Assembly (NCBI GenBank): GCA_031291305.1
Contig: JARLJH010000004.1
Coordinates: 1 to 64,000 of the forward strand
DNA length: 64,000 nucleotides
From: Rhodoferax sp.
GTDB taxonomy: Bacteria > Pseudomonadota > Gammaproteobacteria > Burkholderiales > Burkholderiaceae_C
Direction of reading: 5' to 3'
A program made the position numbers and the translations under genes. The notes beneath the pieces are model-generated. The model was not told where the DNA came from and did no database searches. It saw only the letters and a program-made list of their open reading frames with translations. Positions 43,431-64,000 of this stretch are shown here, one piece after another. The stretch's first letter is position 1. The number at the start of each line of letters is the position of its first letter.

Positions 43431-44846
43431 GTGACCATTGCCACGAGCATTCTCACACATGGTACTGCTAAAAAGTGGGGCTACATGGCACGTGATTTAT
43501 TGACCGTAAAGGCCGTACGAGCGGCCAAGCCAACAGACAAAGAATTCCTGGTCAGCGACGGAGACGGGCTGTTCTTGCGTGTGCTTCCAACTGGCAAGAA
43601 GACGTGGCAACTTATTTACACGCACAGCGGGCGGCGACGCAAGCTATCTCTCGGCGATATGGACGACGTCACACTGGCCAGCGCACGTGAACGGGCAAAT
43701 GTCGAAAGAGAACGTATCGCTGGAGGCCTCGATCCCCGAGTCGCGCTGATCGCGGTCGAGGCTGAACAGGCAAAAGAACTCACAGCCCTCAGTGCCGAGG
43801 CTGAACGCCGCAAGGCGGAAGACCTTCCTTTCAAAGCCATGTTCGATGCATGGCTTGCAGATGGCGTGGCGCGAGGTGATGCCAACGCAGAATTACGAAG
43901 GTCGTTCGAAAAGAATATCCTGCCGACGCTCGGCGCAAAGCCTGTTCGCCACGTGTCAGAGTCAGACATTCGGGACCTGCTCCGTAAGATTGGCCGCACG
44001 CGGGGAAAGTGCCGCACAGCGGTCCTTCAGCTTGCAGATCTCCGCCAACTCTTTCGCTGGGCCGAGAAACGCAAACCTTGGCGACCGTTGCTGATAGAAG
44101 GCAATCCAGCTGAGCTTGTCGAAGCAAAGCAGGTTGTGCTTGCCGAATACGATCTCGCCAACGAACGTGATCGCATCCTCACCGCGGATGAGATACGCAC
44201 TCTGCGCGACATCTTCGTCAGGATGCAGGCCGAGTACGACAATGCCCCGAATAAGCGCACCGAAGTTCGCCCGGTGAGCGCCGAAACGAGACTTTCCATA
44301 TGGATCATGCTGTCCACTTGCTGCCGCATAGGGGAGCTTTGCAATGCGCGCTGGGAGCACGTCAACTTGCAAACCGGCGAGTGGCTTGTGCCCCGCGAGA
44401 GTACAAAGACAAAGGTCGAATGGATGGTGTTCCTGTCCGACTTCGCGCTGCAACAGTTTCAGGCACTTCGACTGATCACGAAGGACAGCATTTGGTGCTT
44501 TCCATCTCGCGACGAAGACAATCACTTGAGTTCGAAGTCGGTCTCGAAGCAGATTGGGGACCGCCAATTTCAGTTCAAGAAGCGCAAACCGCTGAAGAAT
44601 CGTCGCAACGACAACACGCTCGTCCTCCCAGGCGGTGAATGGACCCCTCATGATTTGCGTCGAACTGGGTCGACTTTGATGCAGTCACTCGGCGTGTCCG
44701 AGCATGTGCGTGAACGGTGCCTCAACCATGTCGTAGGTGGCAAGCTCGGACGTATCTACGGGCGCTATGAGTTTGCTCCCGAGAAGCGCGACGCTTGGAA
44801 TGTGCTCGGCGCACATCTTGACTCGATATTGAAAGTGAAGAACTAA
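43431..44846 (+). CDS. P4-type tyrosine integrase of the element
   Basis: The frame starts at GTG 43431, with ATG 43485 also possible. The 471-residue product has the DUF4102-type N-terminal domain (LTVKAVRAAKPTDKEFLVSDGDGLFLRV) and the catalytic core: STCCRIGELCNARW (Arg I), EWMVFLSDF (the beta-Lys region), TPHDLRRTGSTLM (HxxR), LNHVVGG (H) and IYGRYEF (Tyr). P4 integrases act in tRNA anticodon or T regions, consistent with the adjacent tRNA-Arg fragment. It is the likely enzyme that inserted this element. Confidence 0.93.
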   Translation: MTIATSILTHGTAKKWGYMARDLLTVKAVRAAKPTDKEFLVSDGDGLFLRVLPTGKKTWQLIYTHSGRRRKLSLGDMDDVTLASARERANVERERIAGGLDPRVALIAVEAEQAKELTALSAEAERRKAEDLPFKAMFDAWLADGVARGDANAELRRSFEKNILPTLGAKPVRHVSESDIRDLLRKIGRTRGKCRTAVLQLADLRQLFRWAEKRKPWRPLLIEGNPAELVEAKQVVLAEYDLANERDRILTADEIRTLRDIFVRMQAEYDNAPNKRTEVRPVSAETRLSIWIMLSTCCRIGELCNARWEHVNLQTGEWLVPRESTKTKVEWMVFLSDFALQQFQALRLITKDSIWCFPSRDEDNHLSSKSVSKQIGDRQFQFKKRKPLKNRRNDNTLVLPGGEWTPHDLRRTGSTLMQSLGVSEHVRERCLNHVVGGKLGRIYGRYEFAPEKRDAWNVLGAHLDSILKVKN

Positions 44847-46053: not shown

Positions 46054-47097
46054 GCACCCTCTCCTTCCGGCCGTATTGCACGCGATGAGCGTGACGACGC
46101 CTGCATCGCGGTGGCGGCGTAATTCGTACCGGCGATCTGGTAGCCCCGCAGATTCGAAAACATCGGCTCCTTGACCTCCAGAATCTTTTGCGTAGCGTAC
46201 GCCTCCTTAACCCCCTTTTTGAACAAAAAAAGCACCCCCGCCGACCAGAATGACATGCTGGACATCGTAAAACTCACCGATACGGCGCATCATTGCCCCC
46301 ACGGCCTGCTTGGTGACGCTTTCCACCACCGGCTTCATGCGGGCCAGACTGTAGGTTCGCTGGAAGATCGTCAGATTCTTGTTGGTGCGCAAAGCCAGAT
46401 CGATGGCGTCCAACTGGTTGTAAGGTCGGCCAATCTCTGCGCTGATGTCATCCGCAATGACCTGCAGAATGTCAGACACCCCGCGGTTAACCGAATGGCT
46501 GCGCTTGTGCGACAACTTCATACCCCGAGCCACCAACCAGTCAAAGGTACGCGAACCCGGATCAATCACCAGGCTGTGCTCGTTCTCCATCGCAACCACC
46601 TTGTCGTGCTGCGAGGCGTAGTCAATCAATGCCCCATTGGGCTGGGCCATGGCCAGCGCTTTACGCACCAGCACGGTCTTGCCATTGCCCACGTCGTGCG
46701 AACCGGTCATCAGCTTTTCCAGCGCCGCCTTCTTCAAGGCAAACATGGCCACCGGCAAACCGACCACCAGCAGGTCAATAGTGTCAACCTTCATCATTCG
46801 CAGTGCACCGCGCGCCAGCGCCAGGTATTCCGGGGTGTCAATAAAGTTGTCGTGGATCTGCGTGGCACGAAAGGCGTCGGCGGCCAGCATCACGTCCGGC
46901 CCAACTTCATAAAACATGCCGCCAATCGGAATGGCGACCGTCTTGCGCCGATCCGCCCCCAGAGTGGTGGACGGGTCGCGGGGGAAGGGGTAAGCCAGTG
47001 ACGGAAAGCTGGCGCAGCGGATTTCATCATCAGTGACACCGGTGACGTACTTGGTGTTGCCGTAGCCAACGTCCACAGCTCGAATAATCAGTTCCAT
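46050..47097 (-). pseudogene. ParM/StbA-like actin ATPase (PRTRC protein D type), frameshifted
   Basis: The first 296 codons (47097-46207) encode an actin-fold ATPase: RAVDVGYGNTKYV (phosphate 1), VIDPGSRTFDWLVA (phosphate 2), GRPYNQLDAID and VILVGGGAFF (adenosine). The frame then stops after VQKGG. Shifting by one base in a run of seven T on the minus strand (A7 at 46225-46231) continues as FKKGVKEAY, VKEPMFSNLRGYQIAGTNYA and a stop at 46050-46052, which is the usual C-terminal end of this family and overlaps the next start as ATGA. A single-base expansion, sequencing error or programmed slippage explains it. ParM proteins segregate low-copy plasmids or ICE circles. Confidence 0.85.
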
Positions 47098-48321
47098 AAA
47101 AAGACTCCAATTCAGGTTTCAAGGCGATCAGCATCGGTGGCCCGACGCAGTCCATCCACGCAGAAGTCCCCTTCAAAACGCCGAATTTCGGGATCAGGTC
47201 TGGCCAGGGTCTGAATACAGCCATGTCAGGTCACACTGAAACGAGACCATTTCGTCAGACGCTTGAATGAGCCCTGCGTGTCGAACCACGGTCTCACCGC
47301 AAACCGAGCTGTCAAGGGTGTGATTTGCGCGGATCAAGCCGATTTGTGTTATTTCCGTGGCTCGGGCCTGCGAACCGGCCATCAACCCGGTCAAGGTCAC
47401 GTCCGGGACCAGAGGCAGCAATTTCCCTTGTCAAGCCCGCATGCAGCCTCACTTTCAATCCCTTCGGGACAATAAACTCGGCTCACGGGTACATCCCGGT
47501 CGTTCAATCGCCACCCAAAATCGCCGGGAAATCGACACCATTTCCGGCAAGCCTGCTTGACTCATCCTCTGGGTCAGCGTCAACTACAGGTTCCCGAGGG
47601 CCGTCCTGGCCCTGCTCCATTGAGGAGCGCAAGGCGTCGCAGTCGTTACCTGCCCCAAACTCCGGTCCTTGAACCGGAATTCGCCATCGCCCCTTGAGGT
47701 GATGGCCTCGTGGTTTTTTCGTAGTGCAACCCCTTGTGGTCTTGCCAGCGTTAATCGCTGGGCGTTCCCTGAAACGCGCCACGGTTTTCGAGCACTTGGT
47801 CGGCACCTGATGCCGCGCCCCTGTTCCCGCCATCCTTTGAGCACGCGTTTTACGCAGCGCGCGGTTGTGTTTGCCTCTTTAGGCTCCCCGCGCGTTTCCG
47901 CTCACAAACTCGGCACCGCCCTGGACTTTCGGTCAGGGGTGGACCCATGCGAGTGGATGGCGCTACGAATCCAGAACTGATCCATCAGTACGTGCAAGGC
48001 CTGACCTTGTCACGGATGCCCTTTGACGCCCTTGAGGCGGGCGGGCATCACCAACCCCATGGTTGCAGAAATGCACAGGTGGGACGGATCACATGTTTCA
48101 TTTTTAAGGAAGACCGAGCTGGCCAGCGCAGAAGCGCTGGCTGGCAAAACACTGGGTAGGTACCGCACATCGGTGGTCGCGTGCGGCGCCAGAGTTTTTG
48201 ACCACTGATCTGCCGGGCGACGGAATCCGTCCGGCAGGTGACTGCTATGCGATTCCACGCTTTCAACACCTTCCCGCCGTTCGGGCGGCGGGCGGACATC
48301 CACGAAATGGAAGACAACACC
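47098..48321. other. 1.2-kb intergenic region with palindromes, no supported gene
   Basis: Overlapping short frames are present on both strands, but none has protein-like composition across its length. Palindromes cluster at the right: GCCAGCGC (48122-48129) with GCGCTGGC (48134-48141), an imperfect TGCCGG...CCGGCA dyad near 48210, and a CCGCCG...CGGCGG dyad near 48280. They could be operators or an oriT/iteron-like site for the neighbouring recombinase. Promoters for the divergent actin operon and recombinase are expected here. Confidence 0.4.
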
Positions 48322-49497
48322 ATGCCAAACAAATCCTCTCGTCGGCGGCAACAAGGCTCTGTCAGCCCCGGCCGCCTGTTAGTCAGTGAACCCACGCGCC
48401 GTCAAGAATGGGCGAACAAGACTGTCCCAGAAATCCTTGCGGACTATCCGCCGGGCAAGACGCCACCGCTCAAGGTGCTGGAGGTGCTGCTGGAACTCTT
48501 CAACACCCTGCACACCTCGCTGGAGAAAACCGTTTCCCACAAGACGCGCTATGAACGCGCCCAGTTTCTGCGGCGGTTCTTTCGTGACCTGAAAGCCAAA
48601 GCCGGGTTCAACACGATTCCCGATCCACGCAACCTGGGACAAAAGCACATTCATGCGATGGTGCAAGTCTGGCAAAAAGAGCATCTGGCCCCTGCCACGA
48701 TTCAGACTTACCTGAGTTTCCTTCGCGGCTTGGGCATGTGGATGGGCAAGCATGGCTTTGTACGTGGGCCAGCGCATTACGGCCTGAGCTTGGAGGAATA
48801 CCAGCGGCATGAATATGCGCAGCGGGACAAGAGCTGGTCTGCCGCAGGAATTGATATTGAGGAACTCATTGAGCGGGTCTGCGCCTACGACCGGTATGTC
48901 GGCGCTTCGCTGCGGTTGATCAATGCCATGGGGCTGCGGCGAAAGGAGTCCATCCAATTCCGGCCCTTTGAGCACGTCTTGCCTTTCAGCGAAACGGGTC
49001 TGCCCCTTGATCGCAAGACAGCGGATCGGTATGTGAGGATCAAGGGCAAGGGCGGAAGGGTGCGTTTTGTCCCCTTGGACAGCCCTGCCAGATTGGCGGC
49101 GGTCGAACTCGCCCAAGGTCTTGTGTGCAACCAGGATGCCTATTTGGGAGACCCAGTCAATGACCTGAAAAAGAATCTGCGTCGCTTTGACTATGTGCTG
49201 GAGAAATTTGGGATTACGTTTCGGGAACTGGGCGTCACGGCGCATGGATTACGCCACGAGGCGCTGATTGAGCATTTTTCGGCGTTGACAGGGCAACCAC
49301 CGCCGGTGCGAGGTAGTGGGGACTTGCCGGCAGAGGTTGACCAGGCGGCGCGGCAAGCGGTGGCCGCACTTGCTGGCCATTCGAGAATCAGATCGGCTGG
49401 TGCTTATTTAGGTTCGTCAGTTGTTATGCGCACAAAGGCGCCCACTCCTGCGCTATCAGTGGAGCTCGGCGATTCGGACGACAGCCCACGCCAATAA
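48322..49497 (+). CDS. Second tyrosine recombinase of the element
   Basis: From ATG 48322 the 391-residue product has an N-terminal SAM-like domain (TRYERAQFLRRFFRDLKAKAGF, then ATIQTYLSFLRGLGMWMGKHGF) and the core RLINAMGLRRKESIQF (Arg I), RIKGKGGRVRFVPLD (Lys region), TAHGLRHEALIEH (HxxR), LAGHSRI and GAYLGSS (Tyr). All catalytic residues appear present. The frame upstream to 48238 is possible but lacks a ribosome site. It may resolve multimers of the excised element or move a cassette; it is not next to a tRNA. Confidence 0.88.
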   Translation: MPNKSSRRRQQGSVSPGRLLVSEPTRRQEWANKTVPEILADYPPGKTPPLKVLEVLLELFNTLHTSLEKTVSHKTRYERAQFLRRFFRDLKAKAGFNTIPDPRNLGQKHIHAMVQVWQKEHLAPATIQTYLSFLRGLGMWMGKHGFVRGPAHYGLSLEEYQRHEYAQRDKSWSAAGIDIEELIERVCAYDRYVGASLRLINAMGLRRKESIQFRPFEHVLPFSETGLPLDRKTADRYVRIKGKGGRVRFVPLDSPARLAAVELAQGLVCNQDAYLGDPVNDLKKNLRRFDYVLEKFGITFRELGVTAHGLRHEALIEHFSALTGQPPPVRGSGDLPAEVDQAARQAVAALAGHSRIRSAGAYLGSSVVMRTKAPTPALSVELGDSDDSPRQ

Positions 49498-49578: not shown

Positions 49579-50100
49579 TCAAGACCAAGAAGCCTGAGTC
49601 TGCGGCAACGCCTTTCCCGGATCAAAAACTTCCAACACATCCGGCGCAGCCAGCATTTGGGTAAACAACACCAGGTTGGTTCCGCCCTTGGCCAGACGCG
49701 AGGGAAACAAAATACCCTTCGCCCCCGCAGCGATCACCGCATCCCCAACGACCCAACTCGGTGGCTCGACACGTTGGTTGAACCACAGTTCACGCCAGTC
49801 GCAATAGAAGTCTTCCCAAATGGGCTCCCACACAGATGCGCTGTAACCCGCAGTGAAATCGACCACCGGCGCCGCGGTCAATTGATAGCTCGTCAACGTG
49901 CCGGGCGGCAACAGCGTGGAAACCTGCTGGTATTCGCGAACGGCTGTCTCCATCTCCAGCGCCAGATAAAGGGCCTCCACGCCGGGACGGTTGACTCTCC
50001 CGCCATGCCTGGCCGCCCCCGCCCCGCTGGTTGGCGCGACGGCCCATCGGGGCACATGCATCCGGTAAGCCGTGACATCGACCAGCGCGGTCAGCTTCAT
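49579..50100 (-). CDS. RES-domain toxin
   Basis: The 173-residue product is a RES-domain protein: ALVDVTAYRMHVPRW with the first conserved Arg, GGRVNRPGVEALYLALEMETAVREYQQ with the catalytic-type Arg/Tyr/Glu core and AVIAAGAKGILFPS. RES toxins deplete NAD+ in cells. Its ATG overlaps the antitoxin stop as ATGA. Together they form an Xre-RES type II toxin-antitoxin pair that stabilises mobile elements. Confidence 0.9.
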   Translation of the reverse strand: MKLTALVDVTAYRMHVPRWAVAPTSGAGAARHGGRVNRPGVEALYLALEMETAVREYQQVSTLLPPGTLTSYQLTAAPVVDFTAGYSASVWEPIWEDFYCDWRELWFNQRVEPPSWVVGDAVIAAGAKGILFPSRLAKGGTNLVLFTQMLAAPDVLEVFDPGKALPQTQASWS

Positions 50101-50504
50101 CCTGCTGCACCCGCTTCAAGCGACTCCACGTAGCGCAGGACATCCTCGGTGCGCCCTTCCGATACCAGCTGCTCTGCTGTCTTGTAGCCAAACGGGGGCA
50201 ACGGCTCATTGCGGTACCAAAAGATGGCCCGGGTGACGTCGCCGGACAGGTCATGGGCCGCGCGCATCACGCGCAGCGCCTCGCGCAGAAATTTCTGCAC
50301 GCTCTCCGATGCCGGTGCCCGGCTGATGGTGTTGCGATGGACGTGTGCCTGGGTGGCAAGCGTCTGGATGTCGATGCTCAGCACGTCGCCGAATCGCTTC
50401 GGCGACAGCGTGGACGCCCCTGCTTCCTGGTCACGCAGAAAATCGATGAATCCATCGAAACCGTGACTCAAGGCTGGGGCAACCTGAAGGGTTGCGGTGT
50501 GCAT
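50097..50504 (-). CDS. Xre/MbcA/ParS-type antitoxin
   Basis: The 135-residue product has a Xre-like HTH (FGDVLSIDIQTLATQAHVHRNTISRAPASESVQ) followed by the C-terminal toxin-binding region (ALRVMRAAHDLSGDVTRAIFWYRNEPLPPFGYKTAEQLVSEG), the MbcA/ParS-type GYKTAxxLV motif. It precedes the RES toxin in the same operon and overlaps it by 4 bp, the classic antitoxin-first order. Confidence 0.9.
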   Translation of the reverse strand: MHTATLQVAPALSHGFDGFIDFLRDQEAGASTLSPKRFGDVLSIDIQTLATQAHVHRNTISRAPASESVQKFLREALRVMRAAHDLSGDVTRAIFWYRNEPLPPFGYKTAEQLVSEGRTEDVLRYVESLEAGAAG

Positions 50505-50953: not shown

Positions 50954-52600
50954 TTACTCTTCGCCATTTGCCACAGGCGGTTCGTCGGTATCTCCAGACA
51001 GGCTGGCCTTCTCAGGCATCCCGACCCGTAGCACGGTGGGCAACCATCCCGTGCCTGCTACCGTCTGCTCGGCCCCTGTCACGGCGGCATCCTTCTTGAG
51101 TGCGGCCAGCGGGCTGGCGGCATTGGCGTCAACGGCCTCAGACACCACTTCGAGGATGCGCCCCTTGGAGACGTGGTTGAAATACGATGGGCCGGTGGCC
51201 GACCACCACTTGCTCATATCCAGCCCCAATGCCACAGCCAGCGCATCGGTGCTTTGCTTGCTGCGCTCCACTCCGTAGACACCGGTCACCGTCGACGCAA
51301 TGAGGAAGGTCAGCAATTGCTGCACTGTGATGAGCTCCTGCGCCAGCACCCACGGGAAGATTGCATCCACCGATTCCGGTAGTCGTGCCGCCCAGGTTGC
51401 GCGCTCGACTTCCACCTTCTGCCAAGCAGCACTGGCCTTCATGTCGTCCGCTTCAGACGGCAGGCTTGCATGGGTATTTGTCGCGCTCACCGTCAAGGCA
51501 TCGTCGCTGCCGTAGTGGCGGCGGTAACCATCGACCAGGAGCTTTACTGCCAGATGGGCTGTGATCGCGGCCAGCGCCACATCGGGGCGGTCCATCAGTT
51601 CAGCCTGGACTGCAGCCACCCGGTGGGCAGTGAGGCGGCGCATCAGCTTGTCGGTATGGACGGGGCGGATCTTCGGTGAAGGTAGCGACACCAGGGACTC
51701 ATCATCACCGCCCTCGCCTGCCAGCCGTGCCGCCTGCACCATGTCGTTGCGGTCTTCTGGTCGAACCAAGCCGCATTTGAGGGCCGCTGCACCGTCGTTG
51801 CCGACATAAACCACGCATCCGGCCTGGGTCATCAGGTCGGCGGGCCAGACGCTGAGGGTGTCTTCCCGTGCCTTGATCTGCGCCTGCAAACTCTCGGACT
51901 CGGTTTCCAGCTTCTCGTATTCGCCGTTTTCATCGCTCTCATCCGATTCTGCTTCGGCCAGGGCTTCCATCTGGTCATGCAGTGCTGCGATCCGGGTTTC
52001 GAGTTCCGTGAGACTGGCGGCTTCCTGCTCGGTCGGTTCACGCCGGGTTTTGCGCAGTTCACCGTACTTGACGAACTCGTCGTAGTTGTAGCGGACGCGG
52101 ACATCAATCCACTTCCAGCCGTCTGCGGCCACCTGCTTAGCCTTCTTCTGCAACTTTTCGGTCGCCAGCTTTTCCAGCAGCGGGGCATCCAGCAGATAGG
52201 CCTTCTTGTCGTCGTCGCTGAACAGGTCGCGGCGCAAGGTGCCACCGGCCTTCTCATATGTTTTGACGGTTACGTATTTGGCCACCGGGTCGCGGTCAGA
52301 CTCAATCTCGCCCTGTGTGAGCAATTGGCGCAGGTAGTCTGGGCGGCGATTCCAGGTCGGCACACCAGCCCATGTCTGCTCTTGCTTGTCGTGGTCATCA
52401 ACCGAAGCCAGCACCATGAGGCAGTCCAGACCAATCTTGTCTTCCCGGAACTGGGCCATCAGTTGGGGGGACACGGTCGCCAGCTTCATGCGGCGTTTGA
52501 CCACCAGCGGCGTGACACCGAAGGCTGCGGCCACATCTTCGACCGACTTGCCCTGCCCCATCAGCTTGGCAAAGGCGGTGTATTCGTCAGCCGGGTGCAT
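50954..52600 (-). pseudogene. PRTRC-type parB, 3' part (interrupted gene)
   Basis: The 548-codon frame starts abruptly at MHPADEYTAFAKLMGQGKSVEDVAAAFGVTPLVVKRRMKLATVSP, which is the middle of a ParB: helix-turn-helix with FGVTPLVVKRR. The ParB N-terminal domain is missing here but encoded at 58257-58619. The rest is a long domain with a coiled coil (LTELETRIAALHDQMEALAEAESDES) and ends at 50954. Together with the other half the product would be about 668 residues, usual for PRTRC ParB proteins. The ATG is the duplicated target base triplet, not the native start, and no ribosome site precedes it. Confidence 0.9.
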
Positions 52601-52710
52601 CCCTTAGGTCATTTTTGGCGGTGTACTTTTTGCCTGAAGTCATTGCTGGGCAGCGACGTCGCTGGCGTGGCGACACATTCGCCTGTACTTCGTCCGCGTG
52701 CTTCTGATCG

Positions 52711-53199
52711 TCACGTACCAGCACGTGGCACCAAGCTGACCGGCCGACGGGCATCGTCTCGCTCCTTGAGCAGCCGGGCATTCTGTCGCTGGTGCCGGGC
52801 GGCCGCGGCTTCGGCATCGATGGCGCGCTTGAGCAGCGCCGCGTTCTCGGTAGCGAGGTGCCGTTGCTCGGTCTTCAGAACGTCGATCACCGCACGCTGC
52901 TGGGCCAGCTTGTCCTCCCAGCTTTCCAGCTTGCTCGGCACAACCCGTTGCTGCGCAGCCTGGCGCAGCGCATCGATCATCGCCCGGTGGTTGGTGTAGA
53001 TCGCATTGCGTGCAACGCCGGACTCGCGTGCCAGGCTGGCCACGCTGAGCTGGTAGCGCCGATCCTGCAATGCCGCCTCGCGCGGCGTTCCTTTGATCAG
53101 CCGGTCCAATGCATCGCGCAGCTTGCGATCCGTCTCCTGCCGGCGTCTTTCGTACGGGTTGAGCACGGGCATGCGACTCGCATCACGCGCTATTTTCAT
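52711..53199 (-). CDS. Coiled-coil accessory protein of the recombinase trio (TnpC-like)
   Basis: The 162-residue product (MKIARDASRMPVLNPYERRRQ) has an HTH-like SVASLARESGVARNAIYTNHRAMIDALRQAAQQ, then a long coiled coil (EDKLAQQRAVIDVLKTEQRHLATENAALLKRAIDAEAAAARHQRQN). Its position after the two large recombinases matches Tn554 TnpC, a small coiled-coil protein that assists transposition. The first ATG overlaps the stop of the 626-residue gene; ATG 53172 is an alternative. Confidence 0.75.
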   Translation of the reverse strand: MKIARDASRMPVLNPYERRRQETDRKLRDALDRLIKGTPREAALQDRRYQLSVASLARESGVARNAIYTNHRAMIDALRQAAQQRVVPSKLESWEDKLAQQRAVIDVLKTEQRHLATENAALLKRAIDAEAAAARHQRQNARLLKERDDARRPVSLVPRAGT

Positions 53200-55063
53200 C
53201 TTCGGCACTGCCGTCCAGCTGAGCCAGGATGCGGTCGCATTCACCGACCCGTGCCTCGGCAAACACCGTGCTCTCCCGATCGAGGGCATGGGACTGCATC
53301 AAGCTGAGGTTCTGTTCGCGCCGCGCCTCCCACACCGGCCGGTGCCTGTCCGTGACCGCGAAGTTGACACACGAGGCGCATACGCTCTGCGTGCGCAAGG
53401 CCGGGTTGGGGCCCTTTTCGCCGCCCATGCAGGCCGCGGTTTCACTGCGGTAGACGCAGTAGCCCCAGTCGCACGCGCCCAGCCGCAGATCGGTCTCTGC
53501 CATCAGGAACTCGACGTAAGCCTGCACGCTGCCATCGCGCGTGCGCCCACGGAAGCCGGACCGAGCCGCGATCATGCGGCCAGCCTTGCCACCGAGCGAT
53601 ACGGCCGTGAGCAACTCCTCCAGCGCGTGGCGGGTTTCGTCACGCGCATGCCGGTCGATCAGCTCGTCGAGCACGAAGTCGGTGCCGACATAGCCGCGAT
53701 CGGTCATCACCCGGCTGACATGGCCGAAGTGCGCGCGCAGCGCATCCAGTCCGGTGCGGTCGCGCTTGCCGACGAAGCGCGCGAAGGTCTTGCGACCCTG
53801 ATGGGTGTTCAGGTGCCAGGGTTCGCCGCGGTAGGTCGGCAATTCGATGAACGCCGCGAAGCCCTGGTTCAGGCGGGTGATGACCGTCTGGATGCTCGGC
53901 AGTTGGACGCGTGCAGCAGGACCGATCAGGCCGCTGCTGCCGAACGAGAGCCAGAGCTCGGCACGCTGACTGCGCCGGCGCATCGGCGCCGACAGCCGCT
54001 CCATCACGGCGATGGCACGCTCGACGGGGGCCGGCGCCACCCAGCGATGCGGCTCGCCATCGGCGCCTCGCGCCGTCTTGTAGATGCGTCCGACCAGGTA
54101 GGCGAACTGCTCGGTACCGTCGGCTGACGGATGCCTTTCGATGCAGTCCACCCCCAGGCCCAGGATCTCGGAGACCCGTGCACCGATCAGGTAGGCCACC
54201 ACAATGAAGCAGGCTTCACCGATGCGCGACACAAGCATGCGGACCTGCTTGGTGCTGGCCACCGGCGAAGGGTGCCAGGGCTTGTCTTCGCCAGGCAATG
54301 TCGAGAAGCTGAAGCCAGCCAGCGCATCGACTACCGCGAACCCGGCTTTGGTCTGGTTGATGCCGGCAGCCAGCGCCTCGTCGTAAGCTGCCTGAGCCCG
54401 ATGCCATAGCGCGATCACGTCGTCGGCCGGTGTGCCGATCAGGCGCAACGCCGCAGAGACCAACGGCACGGCGATCTCGTCAGGGGTGTACGGCAGCCAG
54501 CCGCCGTCTTTGTTCTTCGAGCGCTTGATCAATGCCGGAATCGGCTCGTCGATGGCCACGTCAGGCAGGCGGCTGCCCTGTAGGTAGAGCAGGTGCAGTA
54601 TGCCGAGGTAGTGGCTCTGCGTTGCGGCTGACAGGGTCTTGTCCGCTGTCTTGCCGGGTCGCTGTGCCACGATGTCGATGAACTCGACCGCGGCGTCGCG
54701 GTGCAGGTCGGCGAAGCACCGACCGCCGCGTTCGGCCATCCACCGGATCAGGATGCGCAAGACCTTGAAGGCCGAGACCAACGTGCCATCGTGCACACCC
54801 TGGCGGCCGGGAGGTGGGTCGACCTTCAGGCTCCAGAGGAAGCGCTTGGCCGCGGCCGACCAGTCCGCCCATTGGGGATCGCTGAAGCGGCTGTCGTCGT
54901 GCATCCGGAAGCCCCAGTCGAGCGAGAAGTCACTGCGATTGCCTCCGGGGCGCAGCCCGTCCAGATGCCAGACTCTGTCGCTCAGCAGCGAGCGCGTCGA
55001 CACCCGGACGTCTGCGCTGGGCATGCCCGGATCGGATGCGAGCATCGGTTTGTCCATGTTCAC
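53183..55063 (-). CDS. Large tyrosine recombinase of the trio
   Basis: The 626-residue product has a C-terminal catalytic core: YLIGARVSEILGLG (Arg I), HQGRKTFARFVGK (HxxR, with Lys/Arg nearby), HFGHVSRVMTDRGYVG (H and nucleophile Tyr). A long N-terminal domain and a Cys-rich C-terminal tail (CDWGYCVYRSETAACMGG, then CASCVNF) surround it. It overlaps the middle gene by 4 bp. It matches the large subunit of Tn554/trio systems and keeps the catalytic set, so it is likely active. Confidence 0.85.
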   Translation of the reverse strand: MNMDKPMLASDPGMPSADVRVSTRSLLSDRVWHLDGLRPGGNRSDFSLDWGFRMHDDSRFSDPQWADWSAAAKRFLWSLKVDPPPGRQGVHDGTLVSAFKVLRILIRWMAERGGRCFADLHRDAAVEFIDIVAQRPGKTADKTLSAATQSHYLGILHLLYLQGSRLPDVAIDEPIPALIKRSKNKDGGWLPYTPDEIAVPLVSAALRLIGTPADDVIALWHRAQAAYDEALAAGINQTKAGFAVVDALAGFSFSTLPGEDKPWHPSPVASTKQVRMLVSRIGEACFIVVAYLIGARVSEILGLGVDCIERHPSADGTEQFAYLVGRIYKTARGADGEPHRWVAPAPVERAIAVMERLSAPMRRRSQRAELWLSFGSSGLIGPAARVQLPSIQTVITRLNQGFAAFIELPTYRGEPWHLNTHQGRKTFARFVGKRDRTGLDALRAHFGHVSRVMTDRGYVGTDFVLDELIDRHARDETRHALEELLTAVSLGGKAGRMIAARSGFRGRTRDGSVQAYVEFLMAETDLRLGACDWGYCVYRSETAACMGGEKGPNPALRTQSVCASCVNFAVTDRHRPVWEARREQNLSLMQSHALDRESTVFAEARVGECDRILAQLDGSAEDENSA

Positions 55064-56868
55064 TCCAGCGCCGGCAAGTGCGGCAGGTTTGCGGCCAATG
55101 CGACTGCGGGCGCCTGCAAGGCGTCCGGGAAGTCGGGCAGGATGTCCTGCACCAGGATGCGGTAACTGGGCGCGTAGAGCAGTTCCCAGCGCTGCGGATC
55201 GAGTTGTTCGCGGGAGCGCTCGAACACCTCCTTGGCCTGGAGGATGCGGGCCAGGTGCGGCGCGTCGAGCGGGATCACCAGACCGGGGCAGCGCAAGCAG
55301 CCACCCAGGTATGGGCAGGCCTGCCCCGCCTGCGTACCGGGCGCCGTGCCGGACATCGGGTTCAGGCAGTCATGACCGAACGGCGCCGTCGCGCGATCAG
55401 CAAGTTCCGAGACGACGTTGCTGGTTCGTGATGCCGACGTGTTGGCCATGCCCACGATCCAGCCGACCATGAGGCGCTGCAGTCGCGCCACGACGTCGCG
55501 CCGCAGTTGTTCGGTCCGCAGCCCCTTGACGTAGGCCTCGGTCGTCAGCACCGACGCGTGGTTGAGGATCTGCTGCACATGCACGATGTCGCCACCCGAG
55601 GCCTGGTAGTGCTCGGTGGCCACGCTGCCGCGCAGGAGCACCGCGGCGAAGTCCAGCAGCAACGCACGCGGACGCTCGGGTGCGGCCCGGTTCCAGATGG
55701 CGATGCGCTCGTTGGCACGGGCGATGAAGCCTCTGACGCCATGGGTGACGGTGCTCAATGTGATCGGCGCGACGGTGAGCGTCTTCTCGCTCCTGAGCAG
55801 GAATAGGCGCTCCCGATCACGCAGCATTGCCTGCGCGACCAGCGGCGCGGTCATGGCCAACAGCTTGTCGATGAGGTTCGGTGCGGCGTAGCGACGGCGT
55901 TGGTCGAAGGAGCGCCGCTGAGCGCGTTTGAGCTTGTCCCCGGCCCGGGCCTTGTCCCAGTCGATGATCACGCGATGCTCGTCCAGAGGATGGGGCCGTT
56001 GGCAATCGCGCCGGAACTGCGTCAGCGGCTGCGGGTTGGCGGCCGTCTGGATCGCCAAGGCGATGTAGAACGGCAGCACCGTCTCGTTCGTCAGATGCAG
56101 GTAGCCTGCCAGTGTGCGCAGTCCACCGTGCCGCGTGATGGCGGACATGTTGAAGCGATGCGCAACGAGGGTCAGGCGCGTCGGCATGACGCCGTTGTCC
56201 ACCTCGGCAAGGTCTCGGATCAGGCGGTACAACTCTGCTGTCGCGCCGGCAGGTTCTGTGTCACTGCGCAGGATCTGCCGCCCCAACTCGAAGCGCTCCC
56301 AGGCCGCATCGATGTCTTCGTAGCAGGCCCGCAGTATCGCCTTGAGCTGCTCCTCGGGCAGGCGTCTGCGCGGCTGGGCATTGCGGTTCGAGTACACCCG
56401 GAACGGGAAGTCGATGCGCTGCGGCAGACGTGATGGGTGGTGGCGCTTGGTCCACTCGATCAGTTGGCGCAGGTACGACAGCAGATTGGCCCGCCCCGAC
56501 AGCGAGCGGGACTCGCCGGCGTGGTTGGTCTGCCGGTCCAGCCACGCGATGTAGCGACCGATCGCAGCCGTGCTCAGGTCGTGGACCGACTGGATACCGA
56601 TGTCTTCGCTGGCGAAGCGTGCGAAGCTCTGCAGCGCTTGCCAACACGCGCGACGCGTGTCTGGCGTGGACGGCACATGGTGATGCCGGAAGGCATCGGC
56701 GAGGACGTGGACGATGTCCGCCGGCAAGTTGAGCGCCGTCACGTCATAGCGTCGGGCGACTTCGCCCCAACCGTCGCGGAACTCGACGATGCCATCGAGC
56801 GCGCCGGGCTTTGCAGCGACGGGTGCGGCGCCCAGGCGCCGGTCGATCTTGGCGCGCTTAGCGGCCAT
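55060..56868 (-). CDS. Middle recombinase-like protein lacking canonical catalytic residues
   Basis: The 602-residue product aligns by shape with tyrosine recombinases but lacks the usual signature residues: at Arg I it reads ALAIQTAANPQPLTQF and the HxxR box is replaced by ALLLDFAAVLLRGS. A LNHASVLTTEAYVKG end keeps His and Tyr. A C-terminal Cys cluster (CPYLGGCLRCPG) follows. It overlaps both neighbours by 4-11 bp. In such trios the partner may be structural. Loss of the catalytic Arg suggests this one is non-catalytic but coupled to the other two; a better alignment could move the motif. Confidence 0.75.
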   Translation of the reverse strand: MAAKRAKIDRRLGAAPVAAKPGALDGIVEFRDGWGEVARRYDVTALNLPADIVHVLADAFRHHHVPSTPDTRRACWQALQSFARFASEDIGIQSVHDLSTAAIGRYIAWLDRQTNHAGESRSLSGRANLLSYLRQLIEWTKRHHPSRLPQRIDFPFRVYSNRNAQPRRRLPEEQLKAILRACYEDIDAAWERFELGRQILRSDTEPAGATAELYRLIRDLAEVDNGVMPTRLTLVAHRFNMSAITRHGGLRTLAGYLHLTNETVLPFYIALAIQTAANPQPLTQFRRDCQRPHPLDEHRVIIDWDKARAGDKLKRAQRRSFDQRRRYAAPNLIDKLLAMTAPLVAQAMLRDRERLFLLRSEKTLTVAPITLSTVTHGVRGFIARANERIAIWNRAAPERPRALLLDFAAVLLRGSVATEHYQASGGDIVHVQQILNHASVLTTEAYVKGLRTEQLRRDVVARLQRLMVGWIVGMANTSASRTSNVVSELADRATAPFGHDCLNPMSGTAPGTQAGQACPYLGGCLRCPGLVIPLDAPHLARILQAKEVFERSREQLDPQRWELLYAPSYRILVQDILPDFPDALQAPAVALAANLPHLPALE

Positions 56869-58015
56869 CGGGGATCAGTTCGCCGTAGAGGTAGGCGATG
56901 CTGCTGGCCAACTCGCGCTCGTTGAGCTCGACGCAGCGCAGGTAGATCGCGGTGCTCTGGATCGAGCTGTGGCCGAGCAGGACCTGCACGGTCTTGAGCG
57001 GGTTGATGTCCGGCGTGAGCAGTGCCTGCCGCTGCAGCCTCACGAGCATGGTCATCGCGAAGGTGTGGCGCAGCCAGTGCACGGAACCAGTGAGGCCGGC
57101 GGCGCGGAAAGCTTCGTTGAAGACGGCCGACAGTCGCTCGCGCGTGATCGCAGCGCCTCGGCTGTTCAGGAACAGGGCCGTAGGCGGTCGGTAGTCGGCG
57201 TGCCGGCGGCGCTGGGCGCGGGTCAGGGGCGTGCGGACTTCCTCGATGTAGCGGTGGGTGCGGTCGATCAACCGTATCGGCGGGTACGTGGTGCGCGGCC
57301 GGTCGCCCTTGGTGATGGTCAGCGCGACGCCGATCAGCGGGTTCTGATCGGCGTCGAGGTGTGCAGTCTCGGGCACTTGGAAGACCGAGAGGCCGCACAG
57401 CTCCTTGCGTCGCATCCCGGTTGCCAGCGCCCATTCAGCCATCAAGCGGTACGGCATGTCCAGCCGGGGGAAGAGCAGGCGCAATTGATCGACGCGCAGC
57501 GCGCGCGGCAGGCGCTCGTGCTCGGACACGGTCAGCGCGTTGGCCACCACCACCGATGGCCCGGCGTGCAGATGGCCGAGGAAGGACTGTCGTCGCTCGG
57601 AGGACACGCGCACATCGACGAAGTGGAACGGCAGTTCATCGATCCAGCCTCGGCCGCGGGCCCAGGTGTAGAAGCGGCAGACCGTGTGGATGCGGTCGTT
57701 CACCGTAGAGCGCGCGTAGGGCCGTCCTGTATGAGGGCTGGGGTTCTCCAGCATCCGGTTGCGGTAAGCAGCAATAGTGGCTTCGCCGATCGTCTGCCAC
57801 TCGAGCCCGGACTGCTCGAGGCTGTCGAACCAGTCGTGCAGATGCTCGGCGTAGGTGCGCACGGTTTCTGCGGCGTGCGAGCGGCCGGGGATCGTCGCCA
57901 CTTCGAGCAAGTAGGAAAACGCCGGCTCGATGATGGCCATCCGTTCCGACACAAGAATCGGCAGGCCTTCCGGTATGCCCGGGTGGCCCGCGACCGCACG
58001 GATGATTCTGACCAT
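56858..58015 (-). CDS. First tyrosine recombinase of the trio (TnpA-like)
   Basis: The 385-residue product is a compact tyrosine recombinase: an N-terminal SAM-like domain (ETVRTYAEHLHDWFDSLEQSG, then PYARSTVNDRIHTVCRFYTWA) and a full catalytic core, ALATGMRRKELCGL (Arg I), TITKGDRPRTTYPP (Lys strand), VHWLRHTFAMTM (HxxR), LLGHSSIQSTAIYLRC (H, Tyr). It is transcribed first and overlaps the next gene by 11 bp. Confidence 0.9.
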   Translation of the reverse strand: MVRIIRAVAGHPGIPEGLPILVSERMAIIEPAFSYLLEVATIPGRSHAAETVRTYAEHLHDWFDSLEQSGLEWQTIGEATIAAYRNRMLENPSPHTGRPYARSTVNDRIHTVCRFYTWARGRGWIDELPFHFVDVRVSSERRQSFLGHLHAGPSVVVANALTVSEHERLPRALRVDQLRLLFPRLDMPYRLMAEWALATGMRRKELCGLSVFQVPETAHLDADQNPLIGVALTITKGDRPRTTYPPIRLIDRTHRYIEEVRTPLTRAQRRRHADYRPPTALFLNSRGAAITRERLSAVFNEAFRAAGLTGSVHWLRHTFAMTMLVRLQRQALLTPDINPLKTVQVLLGHSSIQSTAIYLRCVELNERELASSIAYLYGELIPDGR

Positions 58016-58256
58016 AAGTGTCCTCCGTGGCTCTCGCGTTCACCTCAGTCATCAGACAGTGGATGGCCCGCAAAGCCTTGCAGCTCAACAAAGAGGACAG
58101 TTGGAGAGACCTGCTGTTATCGGGGACCCCAACCGGCCGGCCGACGCGCGCCAGGGCAAGCTTGCCCTGGCGCGTGTCGAAGAGCGTTCCTCGAGAGATT
58201 GCTCCCCGTCCATGACCGGTCAGTGACAGACAGGACAGATTTAGGACGCGATCTAA

Positions 58257-58619
58257 CATGGGGATGTGGAAGCAGTTCTCCGACAAGCTGGCGATCAGGG
58301 CCTTGTCGGCGGGCACGATCAGCACGGGGACGGGGTAGTTCTCGGCAATTTCGCCGCTGGCAACCAGCAGGGTCAGCGCCTCAAGGCGGCGACCGCCTGC
58401 GCAGACCTCGAACAGGCCACGTGCGCCCTTCACGACGATCAGGTTCTGCAGGACGCTGCTTTCCTTGATGGATGCGGCCAGTTCGGCGATGCTCATCTTC
58501 GACGTGCTGCCAGCCGAGCGGGCCTGGTAGGTGTCCGACAGGATCAGCTTGTTGAAGGGGACGGTGGTGCGGGGGGATGCTTCGATGACGGCTTCGATTT
58601 CGGCTTTCGAGAATTTCAT
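58257..58619 (-). pseudogene. PRTRC-type parB, 5' part (interrupted gene)
   Basis: From ATG 58619, with AGGAG upstream, 121 codons encode the ParB N-terminal domain: PRTTVPFNKLILSDTYQAR, ELAASIKESSVLQNLIVV and FEVCAGGRRLEALTLL (boxes I and II), ending ALIASLSENCFHIPM. The frame then runs into the inserted element. The intact protein would read SENCFHIPM-HPADEY across the junction, so the insertion is exact. ParB binds centromere-like sites and may load as a CTP clamp, so this insertion should inactivate partition unless excised. The truncated product would extend into element sequence to 57636. Confidence 0.9.
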
Positions 58620-59597: not shown

Positions 59598-60107
59598 TCA
59601 TGTGCCGCCGTCTTGACGCGGCTCGTGAAACTACCTGGACTCGGCGGGTCGTGAATACCTCGCCATCAAGTCTCCACCAACAATCCACCCGTTTTACCGA
59701 GGATTGCACAGAACAAATCGCACAGGTACTCGCCGTCGCCTTCGCGGAAAGGCACACTGATCCAGCACCTTGGCCTCGGCCAAAGCGCGCTCATCGGAGC
59801 GCTCCTGGGTCAGCTCGGGCGTTGCGGTCGTTACCCGCCTTCGTTGTTGGCGCAGCGCCTTGAAGCTGGCGCTGCCATCGGTGTAGGGGCGCTTGCCTCA
59901 ACCCCGCTCATCCGCTTGCCATCGTCCAACGGCAGGCTTTTGCCTGTTCAGTTCATAGCCCTTTGAGCCCGTCAGCTTCTCACGAAGCCCCGACGTGCTC
60001 GCATTCATCCACGGGGGCATTCCTGGCCCTCTCATTCATTCCCACCCGGGGAGCACGTCTCCCCACTGGGTGGCTGTGTTCCCCATTTTTCTTTGGAGAA
60101 CACACCC
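59598..60107. other. Leader of the methyltransferase-helicase gene
   Basis: No gene is supported. GGGGAG (60048-60053) and CTCCCC (60059-60064) form a hairpin in a C/T-rich leader that ends with GGAGAACACACCC before ATG 60108. A short motif CATTCATCC/CATTCATTCC repeats near 60003 and 60032. These features resemble leaders of large mobile-element operons. Confidence 0.4.
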
Positions 60108-63100
60108 ATGGTACGTATTACCGCGCCTTCCCTCTGGCTACCCGGGTTCAGTCCGGAGCCGTCCGAGTCCCCTGCTCTTTTGATCGAGATTGAACCGGCA
60201 GATTCAGACCCGGTTTCCACCGATGCGAACGACTTTTCAGGCGAACTGGCAACTGAACCGGCACGCCAACGCAGCAACTGGCGCGTGGTCACCGGCGCCG
60301 CAGAAACGGCAACACGCAACCTGTGGTCGCAGCTGACCCGCGCCGAACTGCGGAACCTTGGCGGCAGCGTCACCAAGTTCGAGGCCAATCTGGCCGCGAT
60401 CAAGGTGCTGCACCAGATTGAGACCGAGCAACGCCCGGCCACACCGGACGAACGCAGCACCATGCTTCGCTACACCGGCTGGGGCGGCTTACCCGTCAGC
60501 TTCAACCTTGAAGCCGAAGAAGCTGCCTGGGCCAAACGTGCACGGCAATTGAGTGTCTTGCTGACCCCGAATGAGTACGAATCAGCCCGTGCATCGGTCA
60601 ACAACAGCCATTACACCGAGGTCCATGTGATCGAGGCTATGTGGCAGGCGGTGCAGCGCTTCGGCTTTTCTGGCGGGCGTATTCTAGAGCCCGCTGCGGG
60701 CATCGGTCACTTCGTTGGCGCAATGCCTACTGCCATAGCGGAACAAAGCAGCGTCACCGCTGTCGAGATCGATCAGTTGTCCGGTCGCATGCTGCAAGCG
60801 CTGTATGCACCGGGCGGCGTAGATGTGCGGATTTCTCCCTTCGAGAAAACCCCGCTCGCCGACAACTGGTTCGACTTGGTGATCGGCAACGTACCATTCG
60901 GCAAATACCAGGTCGCCGACGTGAGCAACCGGGCCTACGCCCGCTTCAGCATCCACAACTACTTCTTCGGCCGCGCGCTGGACCTGGTGCGGCCCGGTGG
61001 GCTGGTGTGCCTGATCACCACCAGCTACACGATGGATGCACAGGATGCGAGCGTGCGCCACTACCTGGGGGCCCAAGCCCAGTTGCTGGGCGCGATCCGG
61101 CTCCCCCGGGGCGCCTTTGCGGGCATCGCGTCCACCGACGTGCAGACCGACATCCTGTTCCTGCGCAAGCGGCAGCGGGCCGAGCAAATCGACGACACCT
61201 GGCTGGACCTCAATGTAGTGCCCGAGATATTGCGCGACCCGCAGTGCTATCAGAAATACCTGCAGATCAATGCCTGGTATGCCAAGCACCCTGAGTTCTG
61301 CATAGGCCGGATTCGGCAGGAAAGCAACGGCTACGAGGAAGTGCCTGTCGCAGTATTCGACGGTGACCTGGAAGCCGCGTTACCCGAACGGGTGGCCTTG
61401 CTCCCTTCAGATGTCTACCAGGCGCTGGCGCGGAAGCCGGTTGCTTTGCGCGTGGTGGTGCCATCTGAGCCCGGTGCCCGCCCAGGCAGCTACCGCCTCC
61501 ACCAGGGACGGGTGCACCGGGTCGACGGCAGCGAGATGGCTGATGTGCATGGCATGCTCAACGCCACGCAGCGAGGCCGGATCACCGGCATGTGCGCGAT
61601 TCGGGACTACGCACGGACTTTGCTGGACGCTCAATTGTCCGAAGGCAACGACGGGCGTCTGGGTCATCTGCGGGCTTTGCTCAACGGCACTTACGACCGC
61701 TTCATCACGAAATACGGTTGCCTGAGCACCCGGGCCACTGCGCTGGCGTTCCGGCGCGACCCGGACTACCCGCTGCTGCTGTCGCTGGAGCACTACGACG
61801 AAGAGTCGGACACCGCCAAGAAAGCGGCGCTGTTCACACGGCGTACGTTGACACGGGTAGTGGAGCCAACCACGGCGGGGGAACCGACCGAGGCGCTGGC
61901 GGCGTCCATCCAATGGCGTGGCCGGGTTGATCCCGCCTACATGGCCGGATTGCTGGCCGCGCCCGAAGATGCTGTGCTGCAGGCGCTGGCCGAGGCCGGA
62001 CAGGTCTTTCTTGACCCAGCGGATAGCGATTGGAAAACCGCCGACGACTACCTGTCGGGCAACGTGAAGGCCAAGCTCAAGCAGGCTGTGATGTCGGGCA
62101 GCGCCTACCGGCGCAATATCGACGCGCTGGAACAGGTGCAACCCGAAGACCTGCCGCCAGCGTCCATCGAACCCCGCCTGGGCGCGGTCTGGATTCCCGC
62201 CATGGACGTCGAGGCTTTCGTCCAGGAAGTTCTGGAGCTCAAGGACTGCCAGGTCAGCTATTCGGCCGAGGCCGGAGCCTGGTCAGTGCGCTATGGCGAG
62301 TGGGAAGCGCGCCAGAATGTGAAGGTGACGCAGGAGTTTGGCACCTCGCGCATGAACGGCATCGAACTGGTGCAATGCGCACTGAACGTGCAGGTGCCCA
62401 CGGTACGCGACCCGGACCCCGAGACGGACAGGTATGTCGTCAACTCTGATGAAACGCTGGCCGCACGCGAGAAACTGGGCCTGATCAAAGACCGCTTTGC
62501 TGCCTGGGCCTTTGAGGACACGGTGCGGCGAGAAAAGCTGTGCCGGATTTACAACGAGCTGTTCAACGCCACCCGGCCACGACAGTTCAATGGTTCCCAC
62601 TTGAAGTTGCCGGGATTCTCCCGCTGCTTCACGCTACATCCGCACCAGTTGGATTCCGTCTGGCGCATCGTGCAGTCTGGCAACACCGGGCTGTTCCATG
62701 TGGTCGGTGCGGGCAAGACGGCAGTGTGCGTGATCGCCAGCATGGAACTGCGTCGGCTGGGTTTCATCACCAAGCCCTGCCACGTGGTACCGAATCACAT
62801 GCTCTCGCAGTACACCGCGGAGTTTGTCCGGCTCTACCCGAACGCGTCGGTGCTGATGGCCAGCAAGGAAGACCTGGAGGGCGACCGCCGGCGGAAGCTG
62901 GTGTCGCGCATCGCCACGGGCGATTGGGACGCAGTGGTCATCACGCACTCAAGCTTTGAGCGCATCAAGATGTCGCCGCAATTCACCGAAACGTTTATCA
63001 AGGAGATCATTCATGAGTTAGAAATGGCAGTACGCGCAGAAAAGAGCAATGACAAGTCCAACCGGATCGTCAAGCAACTGGAGGCAATGAAGAAGAACTG

Positions 63101-64000
63101 GGCAGCCAGGCTGGAACGGCTGCTGGCGGACCAGAAGAAGGATGACCTGCTCACCTGGGAACTGCTGGGCATTGACTGCCTTTTCGTCGATGAGGCTCAT
63201 CTGCACAAGAACCTGTACCGATTCACCAAGATGACACGGGTCGCGGGTTTGCCCTTGACCAGCTCGGAACGCGCGTTCGATCTGTTCCTGAAGACGCGCT
63301 ACACCATGAAAATCCATGGACATGCCCAGCGTGGGGTGGTGTTTGCAACGGCAACGCCAGTGGCCAACACCATGGCGGAGATCCACACCATGATGCGTTA
63401 CCTGCAGCCAAACCGGCTGGAGGAACTCGGGCTGCAGCAGTTCGATGCCTGGGCTGCCACCTTCGGTGAGAGCGTCACGGCGCTGGAGATCGCACCGGAT
63501 GGCAGTGGATACCGCATGCACACGCGGTTTGCACGGTTCATCAATGTGCCCGAGTTGATGGCGGTGTTTGGTGAAGTGGCCGACATCCGCACGGCGGAAA
63601 TGCTGAACTTGCCAGTCCCGCCATTACGCGGGGGCAAAGCACGCATCGTGGCCTGCCCATCCAGCAAGGCGCTCAAGGCCTTTGTGGAAACACTGGTGCT
63701 GCGGGCGGAAGCCGTCCGAAGCGGCCATGTGAAGCCGCAGGACGACAACATGCTTGCGATCACCACGGATGGCCGCAAGGCTGCGCTGGATTTCCGGCTG
63801 GTGGCACCGCTGGCCAAGTTTGATACCAAGGGCAAGGTGGTCGCCTGCGTAGGTGAGGTGATGGACATCTGGCGCAGGAGTACGGACTTCCGCGGTGCCC
63901 AGATGGTGTTTTGCGATCTGTCATCGCCCAAGGGGGACAAAGGGTTCAGCGTCTATGACGATTTGCGGCAAAGGCTGATCGAAGCAGGTCTGCCTGAGAA
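60108..64000 (+). CDS. Giant N6-adenine methyltransferase-SNF2 helicase, DarB-like (partial)
   Basis: The frame from ATG 60108 stays open to the right edge (1297 codons and continuing). An N-terminal region is followed by TGWGGLPVSF and an adenine methyltransferase with ILEPAAGIGHF (motif I, about 195) and GNVPFGKY (motif IV NPPF-like, about 262). A long middle part leads to a helicase: HPHQLDSVWRIVQSGNTGLFHVVGAGKTAV (Walker A, about 862), FVDEAHLHKN (DEAH, about 1028) and ATATPVANTM (motif III, about 1082). The fusion resembles phage P1 DarB-type and plasmid Strawberry-notch-like methylase-helicases, which protect element DNA from host restriction. Confidence 0.92.
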   Translation, partial: MVRITAPSLWLPGFSPEPSESPALLIEIEPADSDPVSTDANDFSGELATEPARQRSNWRVVTGAAETATRNLWSQLTRAELRNLGGSVTKFEANLAAIKVLHQIETEQRPATPDERSTMLRYTGWGGLPVSFNLEAEEAAWAKRARQLSVLLTPNEYESARASVNNSHYTEVHVIEAMWQAVQRFGFSGGRILEPAAGIGHFVGAMPTAIAEQSSVTAVEIDQLSGRMLQALYAPGGVDVRISPFEKTPLADNWFDLVIGNVPFGKYQVADVSNRAYARFSIHNYFFGRALDLVRPGGLVCLITTSYTMDAQDASVRHYLGAQAQLLGAIRLPRGAFAGIASTDVQTDILFLRKRQRAEQIDDTWLDLNVVPEILRDPQCYQKYLQINAWYAKHPEFCIGRIRQESNGYEEVPVAVFDGDLEAALPERVALLPSDVYQALARKPVALRVVVPSEPGARPGSYRLHQGRVHRVDGSEMADVHGMLNATQRGRITGMCAIRDYARTLLDAQLSEGNDGRLGHLRALLNGTYDRFITKYGCLSTRATALAFRRDPDYPLLLSLEHYDEESDTAKKAALFTRRTLTRVVEPTTAGEPTEALAASIQWRGRVDPAYMAGLLAAPEDAVLQALAEAGQVFLDPADSDWKTADDYLSGNVKAKLKQAVMSGSAYRRNIDALEQVQPEDLPPASIEPRLGAVWIPAMDVEAFVQEVLELKDCQVSYSAEAGAWSVRYGEWEARQNVKVTQEFGTSRMNGIELVQCALNVQVPTVRDPDPETDRYVVNSDETLAAREKLGLIKDRFAAWAFEDTVRREKLCRIYNELFNATRPRQFNGSHLKLPGFSRCFTLHPHQLDSVWRIVQSGNTGLFHVVGAGKTAVCVIASMELRRLGFITKPCHVVPNHMLSQYTAEFVRLYPNASVLMASKEDLEGDRRRKLVSRIATGDWDAVVITHSSFERIKMSPQFTETFIKEIIHELEMAVRAEKSNDKSNRIVKQLEAMKKNWAARLERLLADQKKDDLLTWELLGIDCLFVDEAHLHKNLYRFTKMTRVAGLPLTSSERAFDLFLKTRYTMKIHGHAQRGVVFATATPVANTMAEIHTMMRYLQPNRLEELGLQQFDAWAATFGESVTALEIAPDGSGYRMHTRFARFINVPELMAVFGEVADIRTAEMLNLPVPPLRGGKARIVACPSSKALKAFVETLVLRAEAVRSGHVKPQDDNMLAITTDGRKAALDFRLVAPLAKFDTKGKVVACVGEVMDIWRRSTDFRGAQMVFCDLSSPKGDKGFSVYDDLRQRLIEAGLPE

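Follow-up and report, generated by a model that had tools for sequence, protein, structure and literature searches.

Which kind of element divides a parB gene in two on contig JARLJH010000004.1 of Rhodoferax sp., and could the gene be switched on and off by its coming and going? A stretch of 64,000 nucleotides of this contig is referred to as the window, and the region of interest is at its positions 50,954-58,619. Read along the minus strand, the order is the N-terminal half of parB (58619-58257), an inserted element (58256-52604) and the C-terminal half of parB (to 50954); the gap between the two halves consists of the element, 5,653 base pairs (bp) long, and one additional 6-bp core. We are highly confident that the insertion is a cargo-free member of a tyrosine-recombinase family, with three recombinases and a small protein, which is site-specific for ParB genes after the motif ENxxRxx[L/M] and keeps the target's core at its ginA end.

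The N-terminal half (58257-58619, minus strand) ends in ENCFHIPM, has a ParB_N match barely at the cut-off (Pfam E 7.5e-06) and covers positions 13-93 of TIGR03734, the PRTRC parB model; the C-terminal half (50954-52597, minus strand) has an open frame and covers the adjoining positions 93-167. Scored separately, the halves reach 25.4 and 21.5 bits against a curated cut-off of 278.6, and because these scores lie so far below it, the label "PRTRC-type," given to the gene in an earlier, sequence-only reading of this DNA, is a weak one, although adjoining parts of the model are indeed matched. The same genome has an intact parB paralogue on contig C51 (loci L099/L163) in which the site is uncut. 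The two window flanks align to this paralogue (87% and 82% nucleotide identity, with small indels) such that they abut with an overlap of 3 bp, and the protein halves are 93% identical to L099 over 119 amino acids (N side) and 91% identical over 528 amino acids (C side). Another, separate ParB gene is present on contig C67. The alignments bear out the earlier proposal that the parB site can be reconstructed; the halves had been said to rejoin at a shared ATG, and while the joinable site is real, that ATG is half of a 6-bp core, reading CCCATG on the N side (58257-58262, minus strand) and GGGATG on the C side (52598-52603, minus strand). CCCATG, identical to the junction bases of the paralogue, is the target's own; GGGATG, whose first three bases differ from it, is taken to be foreign and borne by the element.

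The element (52604-58256, minus strand) runs from TTAGATCGCG at the ginA end (minus strand) to TGACCTAA at the ginD end. Its ends share an imperfect inverted TTAG[G/A]TC, plus an imperfect TGT[C/A]CT-like block common to both; draft contigs of relatives begin and end exactly at TTAGG and CTAA (L030, L031) or at most 4 bp from the element ends (L023, L025, L048). What had been described as a recombinase trio does comprise three tyrosine recombinases with their catalytic residues, but a small gene follows them, making four genes in all. On the minus strand these are a ginA-like gene of 385 amino acids (56858-58015; R202, K236, H313, R316, H349, Y358; Phage_integrase E 2.4e-16), a ginB-like gene of 602 (55060-56868; R287, K306, R413, H437, Y446), a ginC-like gene of 626 (53183-55063; R296, K329, H421, R424, H448, Y458), and a ginD-like gene for a small protein of about 177 amino acids (52711-53244), or 192 from its first start, extending to 53289. 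Three recombinases followed by the small gene is the order found in 33 of the 36 loci processed. With L011, L066 and L093 left out of motif counts and tree, 33 loci were aligned, and in all of them GinA keeps R-K-H-R-H-Y, GinB keeps R-K-R-H-Y, without the first histidine, and GinC keeps R, K, R, H and Y, with H421 present in 29; the catalytic tyrosines Y358, Y446 and Y458 are each found in 33/33. GinB gives weak Xer matches (XerA profile E 0.00047), and the top PDB matches of its AlphaFold model (mean pLDDT 74) are Cre and the Tn1549 integrase, with a best E of 5.4e-04. Sequence searches with GinC against families and PDB sequences returned no match; its model (mean pLDDT 66) has Cre as its top PDB matches (best E 9.3e-04). 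The ginD-like protein has a weak DUF6262 similarity, below cut-off (E 7e-05), and among 12 ginD-like members six match DUF6262 and six match TetR_N (E up to 0.01). There is no space for a cargo gene from ginD to the end of the window element; some rhizobial relatives have one annotated gene in that interval.

Is parB the accustomed site of such elements, or an accident of this genome? A megablast against plasmid records led to Variovorax WDL1 plasmid 4, where an element of 76% identity likewise sits inside a parB. Further relatives were collected by scanning with the first recombinase, taking one genome per species; among the best 80 of 98 confirmed loci, hosts are mainly Alphaproteobacteria and the nearest GinA, at 93%, is from an uncultured proteobacterium (L014). 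Element ends were sought in 66 sequences, two of which are repeats of one insertion. We tabulated 24 insertions, the window and 23 loci, chosen for having both ends found and ParB-like flanks; six of these come from one strain, BTAi1, and the table excludes loci without both ends, including five with a ParB-like flank on one side (L024, L033, L034, L037, L040). The sequence-only reading had proposed comparing other insertions for the target motif, and the same codon is cut in all 24: these divergent ParB genes have E[N/T]xx[R/H]xx[L/M] as the end of the N half and continue after the insertion with HP or NP (ST or AP in L014 and L039). The C-side core codes for x-[L/M], as ParB does at that position, in 23 of the 24. 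Open C halves of 458-595 codons are likewise present in 23, the exception being L028 with a stop after 106 codons.

The same target recurs at element boundaries in four draft genomes (Aquamicrobium, Ensifer and two Bradyrhizobium), where flanks were read by motif and not by family search. Element-length contigs there begin and end at the element ends or at most 4 bp away; ENxxRxx[L/M] was found in 11/11 left flanks, and right flanks open with x-[L/M]-[H/N] in 13/13, followed by P in 12 (the exception, L214, reads DMHVVDEI instead of HP). Seven boundaries (three left, four right) lie on element-only contigs without a flank, and the left ends of G316 were not found because the search pattern did not fit them.

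The remaining scanned sequences have other targets, such as apparent DUF736 genes, or reach contig ends, or have ends missed by our patterns. Relatives inside apparent DUF736 genes are L008, L009, L042, L043, L044, L046, L051 and L086; in these insertions AACGGC is often the core, either at one side or at both. Eleven sphingomonad loci (L013, L058, L059, L061-L065, L068, L070, L074) have another common right flank, of the type TG[C/T]-x-CTx-AA[A/G]-TGG-AA. In L026 (Shinella) the element ends are doubled, 78 bp apart, on both sides and with N in the sequence, perhaps an assembly artefact. In a tree built from the three recombinases, the parB rows group together (4 changes, against a shuffled mean of 11.2) and the DUF736 group, with five insertions in the tree, is one clade; the number of changes given for parB may be an overestimate, because L040 and L041 were labelled "other" despite partly ParB-like flanks.

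These results bear on the notion that the element is an ordinary RIT with no special link to parB, the parB site being one landing place of many. Such an element would likewise have three recombinases with a catalytic tyrosine, as passages of PMC10214605 and PMC3414803 describe for RITs, and some of the relatives are located elsewhere; the identical codon in 24/24, the parB motifs seen in 23 of the 24 additional boundary flanks and the separate clade formed by the DUF736-target elements make it the least credible of the explanations we considered.

If insertion is site-specific, which of the two cores belonged to the target? Uncut alleles were sought in 101 other fetched loci (identity at least 80% on the N side and at least 78% on the C side), and natural uncut alleles of the sort that the sequence-only reading had proposed to look for in related elements were found, one of them in the window's own genome. 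Six cases are informative, having both an uncut allele and differing cores: the window, L004, L005, L015, L018 and L027. The empty core is closer to the N-side core in 6/6, being identical in five and matching at 5/6 bases in L027, and is identical to the C-side core in none, whereby the reverse polarity was rejected. L022 and L028, in which both cores are equal, are uninformative on polarity. The ginA side thus retains the six bases of the target, and the ginD side bears a foreign six. In L015 and L018 the empty alleles are 100% identical to the occupied ones over all the flank compared, and these are therefore recent insertions.

By analogy with GInts and SEs, the element would move as a circle, with 6 bp linking its two ends. 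Upon integration, the six bases native to the target would remain at the ginA end, and those borne by the circle, which would derive from the flank next to ginA at the site occupied before, would land at the ginD end; in the window, CCCATG would be the target core and GGGATG the imported one. Since the core of the last host gene would be kept at the ginD end, each copy would record its origin.

Genomes with several copies offer a view of this record. In Bradyrhizobium BTAi1 six parB genes, one on a plasmid and five on the chromosome, each contain a copy, and these copies show zero differences over 6,534 bp; B. manausense (L015) has a seventh, identical to them. A protein search of BTAi1 with one of the chromosomal ParB genes found five on the chromosome, every one of them cut; three other BTAi1 ParB-family matches are open frames of 315-353 amino acids. 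The plasmid also has a fragment of a ParB-like gene, and L171 is a ParB-like match of 191 amino acids. In three of the chromosomal copies the foreign core is GCGCTG, the same six bases that the plasmid copy has as its native core. More generally, in 4/4 multi-copy genomes with both end types, the foreign core seen most often also occurs among the native cores of that genome (P ~0.015 when native cores were shuffled among genomes). The identity of donors as read from cores is suggestive. In the four multi-copy genomes the copies with a donor-fitting core are still occupied, which favours copying out over clean excision; and because the foreign 6 bp resemble another parB core in 23/24 insertions, movement from parB to parB with the donor copy retained is what probably takes place, as far as the cores can tell. 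We hold belief and doubt in equal measure for the full account, in which a transposon lineage would use the ParB motif ENxxRxx[L/M] as a beacon, copy itself from parB to parB, cut partition-type genes successively and keep the 6-bp core of its last host at the ginD end.

The occupied donors also bear on the second half of our opening question. The sequence-only reading had suggested that precise excision would restore partition and that the insertion might so toggle element stability. The core comprises two codons, and both cores code for x-[L/M] in 23/24, so that either excision product would be in frame; the long open C halves fit this idea, and empty sites were found by polymerase chain reaction for some GInts, according to parts of PMC5385486. 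Open halves are, however, equally expected of a recent insertion, and SEs leave no empty site (as stated in portions of PMC10214605). With an intact paralogue of 91% identity elsewhere in the genome, likely donor copies still occupied and no circle junction in the viral collection scanned, such a reversible switch is possible but improbable, and the proposal was not upheld.

What then becomes of the divided protein? The motif at which the cut falls is, we presume, part of the ParB nucleotide-binding site. The insertion severs the ParB_N lobe from the rest, and loss of ParB function is therefore likely; most likely, the insertion divides ParB in two and inactivates it. That the halves are instead made as separate polypeptides which still cooperate is a very unlikely alternative: in the window an ATG opens the C half and neither frame is interrupted, yet at the corresponding position a number of relatives have CTG, CTT, CTC or another codon, and the cut separates the ParB_N lobe from the remainder.

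Several observations weigh against a site-specific element with native and foreign cores that moves from parB to parB. The two cores of the window differ at only three of six bases, and 18 of the 24 insertions are without an informative close empty allele. The foreign core of L088 codes for DP, which is not ParB-like. Two of the six BTAi1 copies have the foreign core GCGCTT, and none of the occupied sites in that strain has it as its native core; a donor with GCGCTT was sought in BTAi1 and not found, and an intact parB with this core is present in Bradyrhizobium genome G117. The donor rule comes from four genomes only, and counted singly, foreign cores are among the native cores in 11/17, a value reached in 5.8% of shuffles. 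The GinB and GinC models are middling in confidence (pTM 0.50 each). Finally, IMG/VR, the only collection scanned, held no circle junction, with 0 matches for the rhizobial-type pattern. The sole match to the window-type junction there, L157, is a 4.1-kb contig without a match to the element proteins tried; it was taken as chance, and we read the contig as an RNA phage.

Given these features, where does the element stand among known recombinase systems? It is a variant of the kind to which GInts, RITs and SEs belong, but falls within none of the three: its layout is GInt-like, its catalytic set RIT-like and its core polarity SE/Tn554-like. With GInts it shares an operon of three recombinase-like genes followed by a small fourth gene, and site-specific insertion, with a 6-nucleotide staggered exchange inferred for GInts in PMC5385486; excision and circle formation of GInts require all four genes. 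The GinC of GInts, however, is reported to lack the first arginine or catalytic motif, whereas R, K, R, H and Y are conserved in each of the three recombinases described here. GInts carry 2.5-70 kb of cargo, against none in the window element, and target ssb or an ABC transporter gene instead of parB. GInt borders have 10-17-nucleotide imperfect direct repeats; in the window only the position of the 6-bp core recurs, with differing letters. Blocks of ginC-ginD are reported as absent from Alphaproteobacteria, the main hosts here. A Pseudomonas veronii plasmid element with GInt-like layout, which we read as a GInt, has a third gene apparently interrupted by IS30; its second protein is 21% identical to that of the window (E 5e-12), and its small protein has a weak similarity to that of L012 (E 4e-05).

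For SEs, sections of PMC10214605 describe four conserved genes, inverted ends and a target core at the intA end with the donor core opposite, in agreement with the native side seen in 6/6 here; these sections also place SEs only in Gammaproteobacteria and report an SE protein, Tfp, without the catalytic motif, unlike our recombinases with their tyrosines and our mainly alphaproteobacterial hosts. Tn554, as outlined in the same sections, shares the 6-bp footprint and target specificity but has TnpA, TnpB and TnpC only, with no third recombinase. RITs, in excerpts of PMC3414803 and in Table 1 of PMC10214605, have three adjacent recombinases with a catalytic tyrosine and, in the former excerpts, occur on plasmids and islands of Alpha- and Betaproteobacteria; the archetype described there has recombinases of 315-410 amino acids and no fourth gene. 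RITs also have terminal inverted repeats of 34 bp; the ends here share their TTAG[G/A]TC and TGT[C/A]CT-like blocks imperfectly. The term "parB" has 0 occurrences in PMC5385486, PMC10214605 and PMC3414803. We found no description of a parB target in open-licence literature listings and abstract starts; the phrase "insertion in parB" occurs in PMC11329110 and PMC9800825. As far as these listings show, the parB target is new.

Palindromes had been noted by both ends of the element, and both are present. The larger, of 38 bp (58142-58179), lies upstream of ginA about 80 bp inside the ginA end and occupies the same position in L003 and L014, with compensating changes; it is perhaps a site for a regulator or a recombinase. 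A different palindrome, placed about 210 bp upstream of ginA, occurs in many rhizobial elements, and our scan found none in others. The smaller, of 18 bp (52649-52666), was seen near the ginD end in the window sequence. Within the ginA end of the window (58015-58256), and in L003 and L014, there are several copies of AGGACA/TGTCCT, one right before the ginA start, possibly arm-type sites or sites of autoregulation.

Around the split gene, the window holds a gene for PRTRC protein D (ParM-like; 46207-47097, minus strand; TIGR03739 E 1.7e-116) and, adjoining the C half of parB, a RES-domain toxin-like gene with a small partner gene (49579-50504, minus strand). A large open frame (60093-64000, plus strand) is weakly similar to the DNA methyltransferases of the MADS and BREX defence systems. 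Two more tyrosine recombinases, of other types, are encoded on the plus strand at 48238-49497 and 43431-44846, and the latter may mark the island edge; left of the island are RelA/SpoT, RNase PH and HemW-like genes, and there the window looks chromosomal.

For the poorly understood recombinase-trio elements this is a new sort of target: a coding motif of a protein that a great many plasmids and islands encode. The mark of six bases would be a directional record of single transposition events, and it therefore makes copying out versus cutting out testable in a soil strain with six identical copies. For annotation, where a parB is recorded as a pair of hypothetical fragments, the pair may represent a single occupied site.

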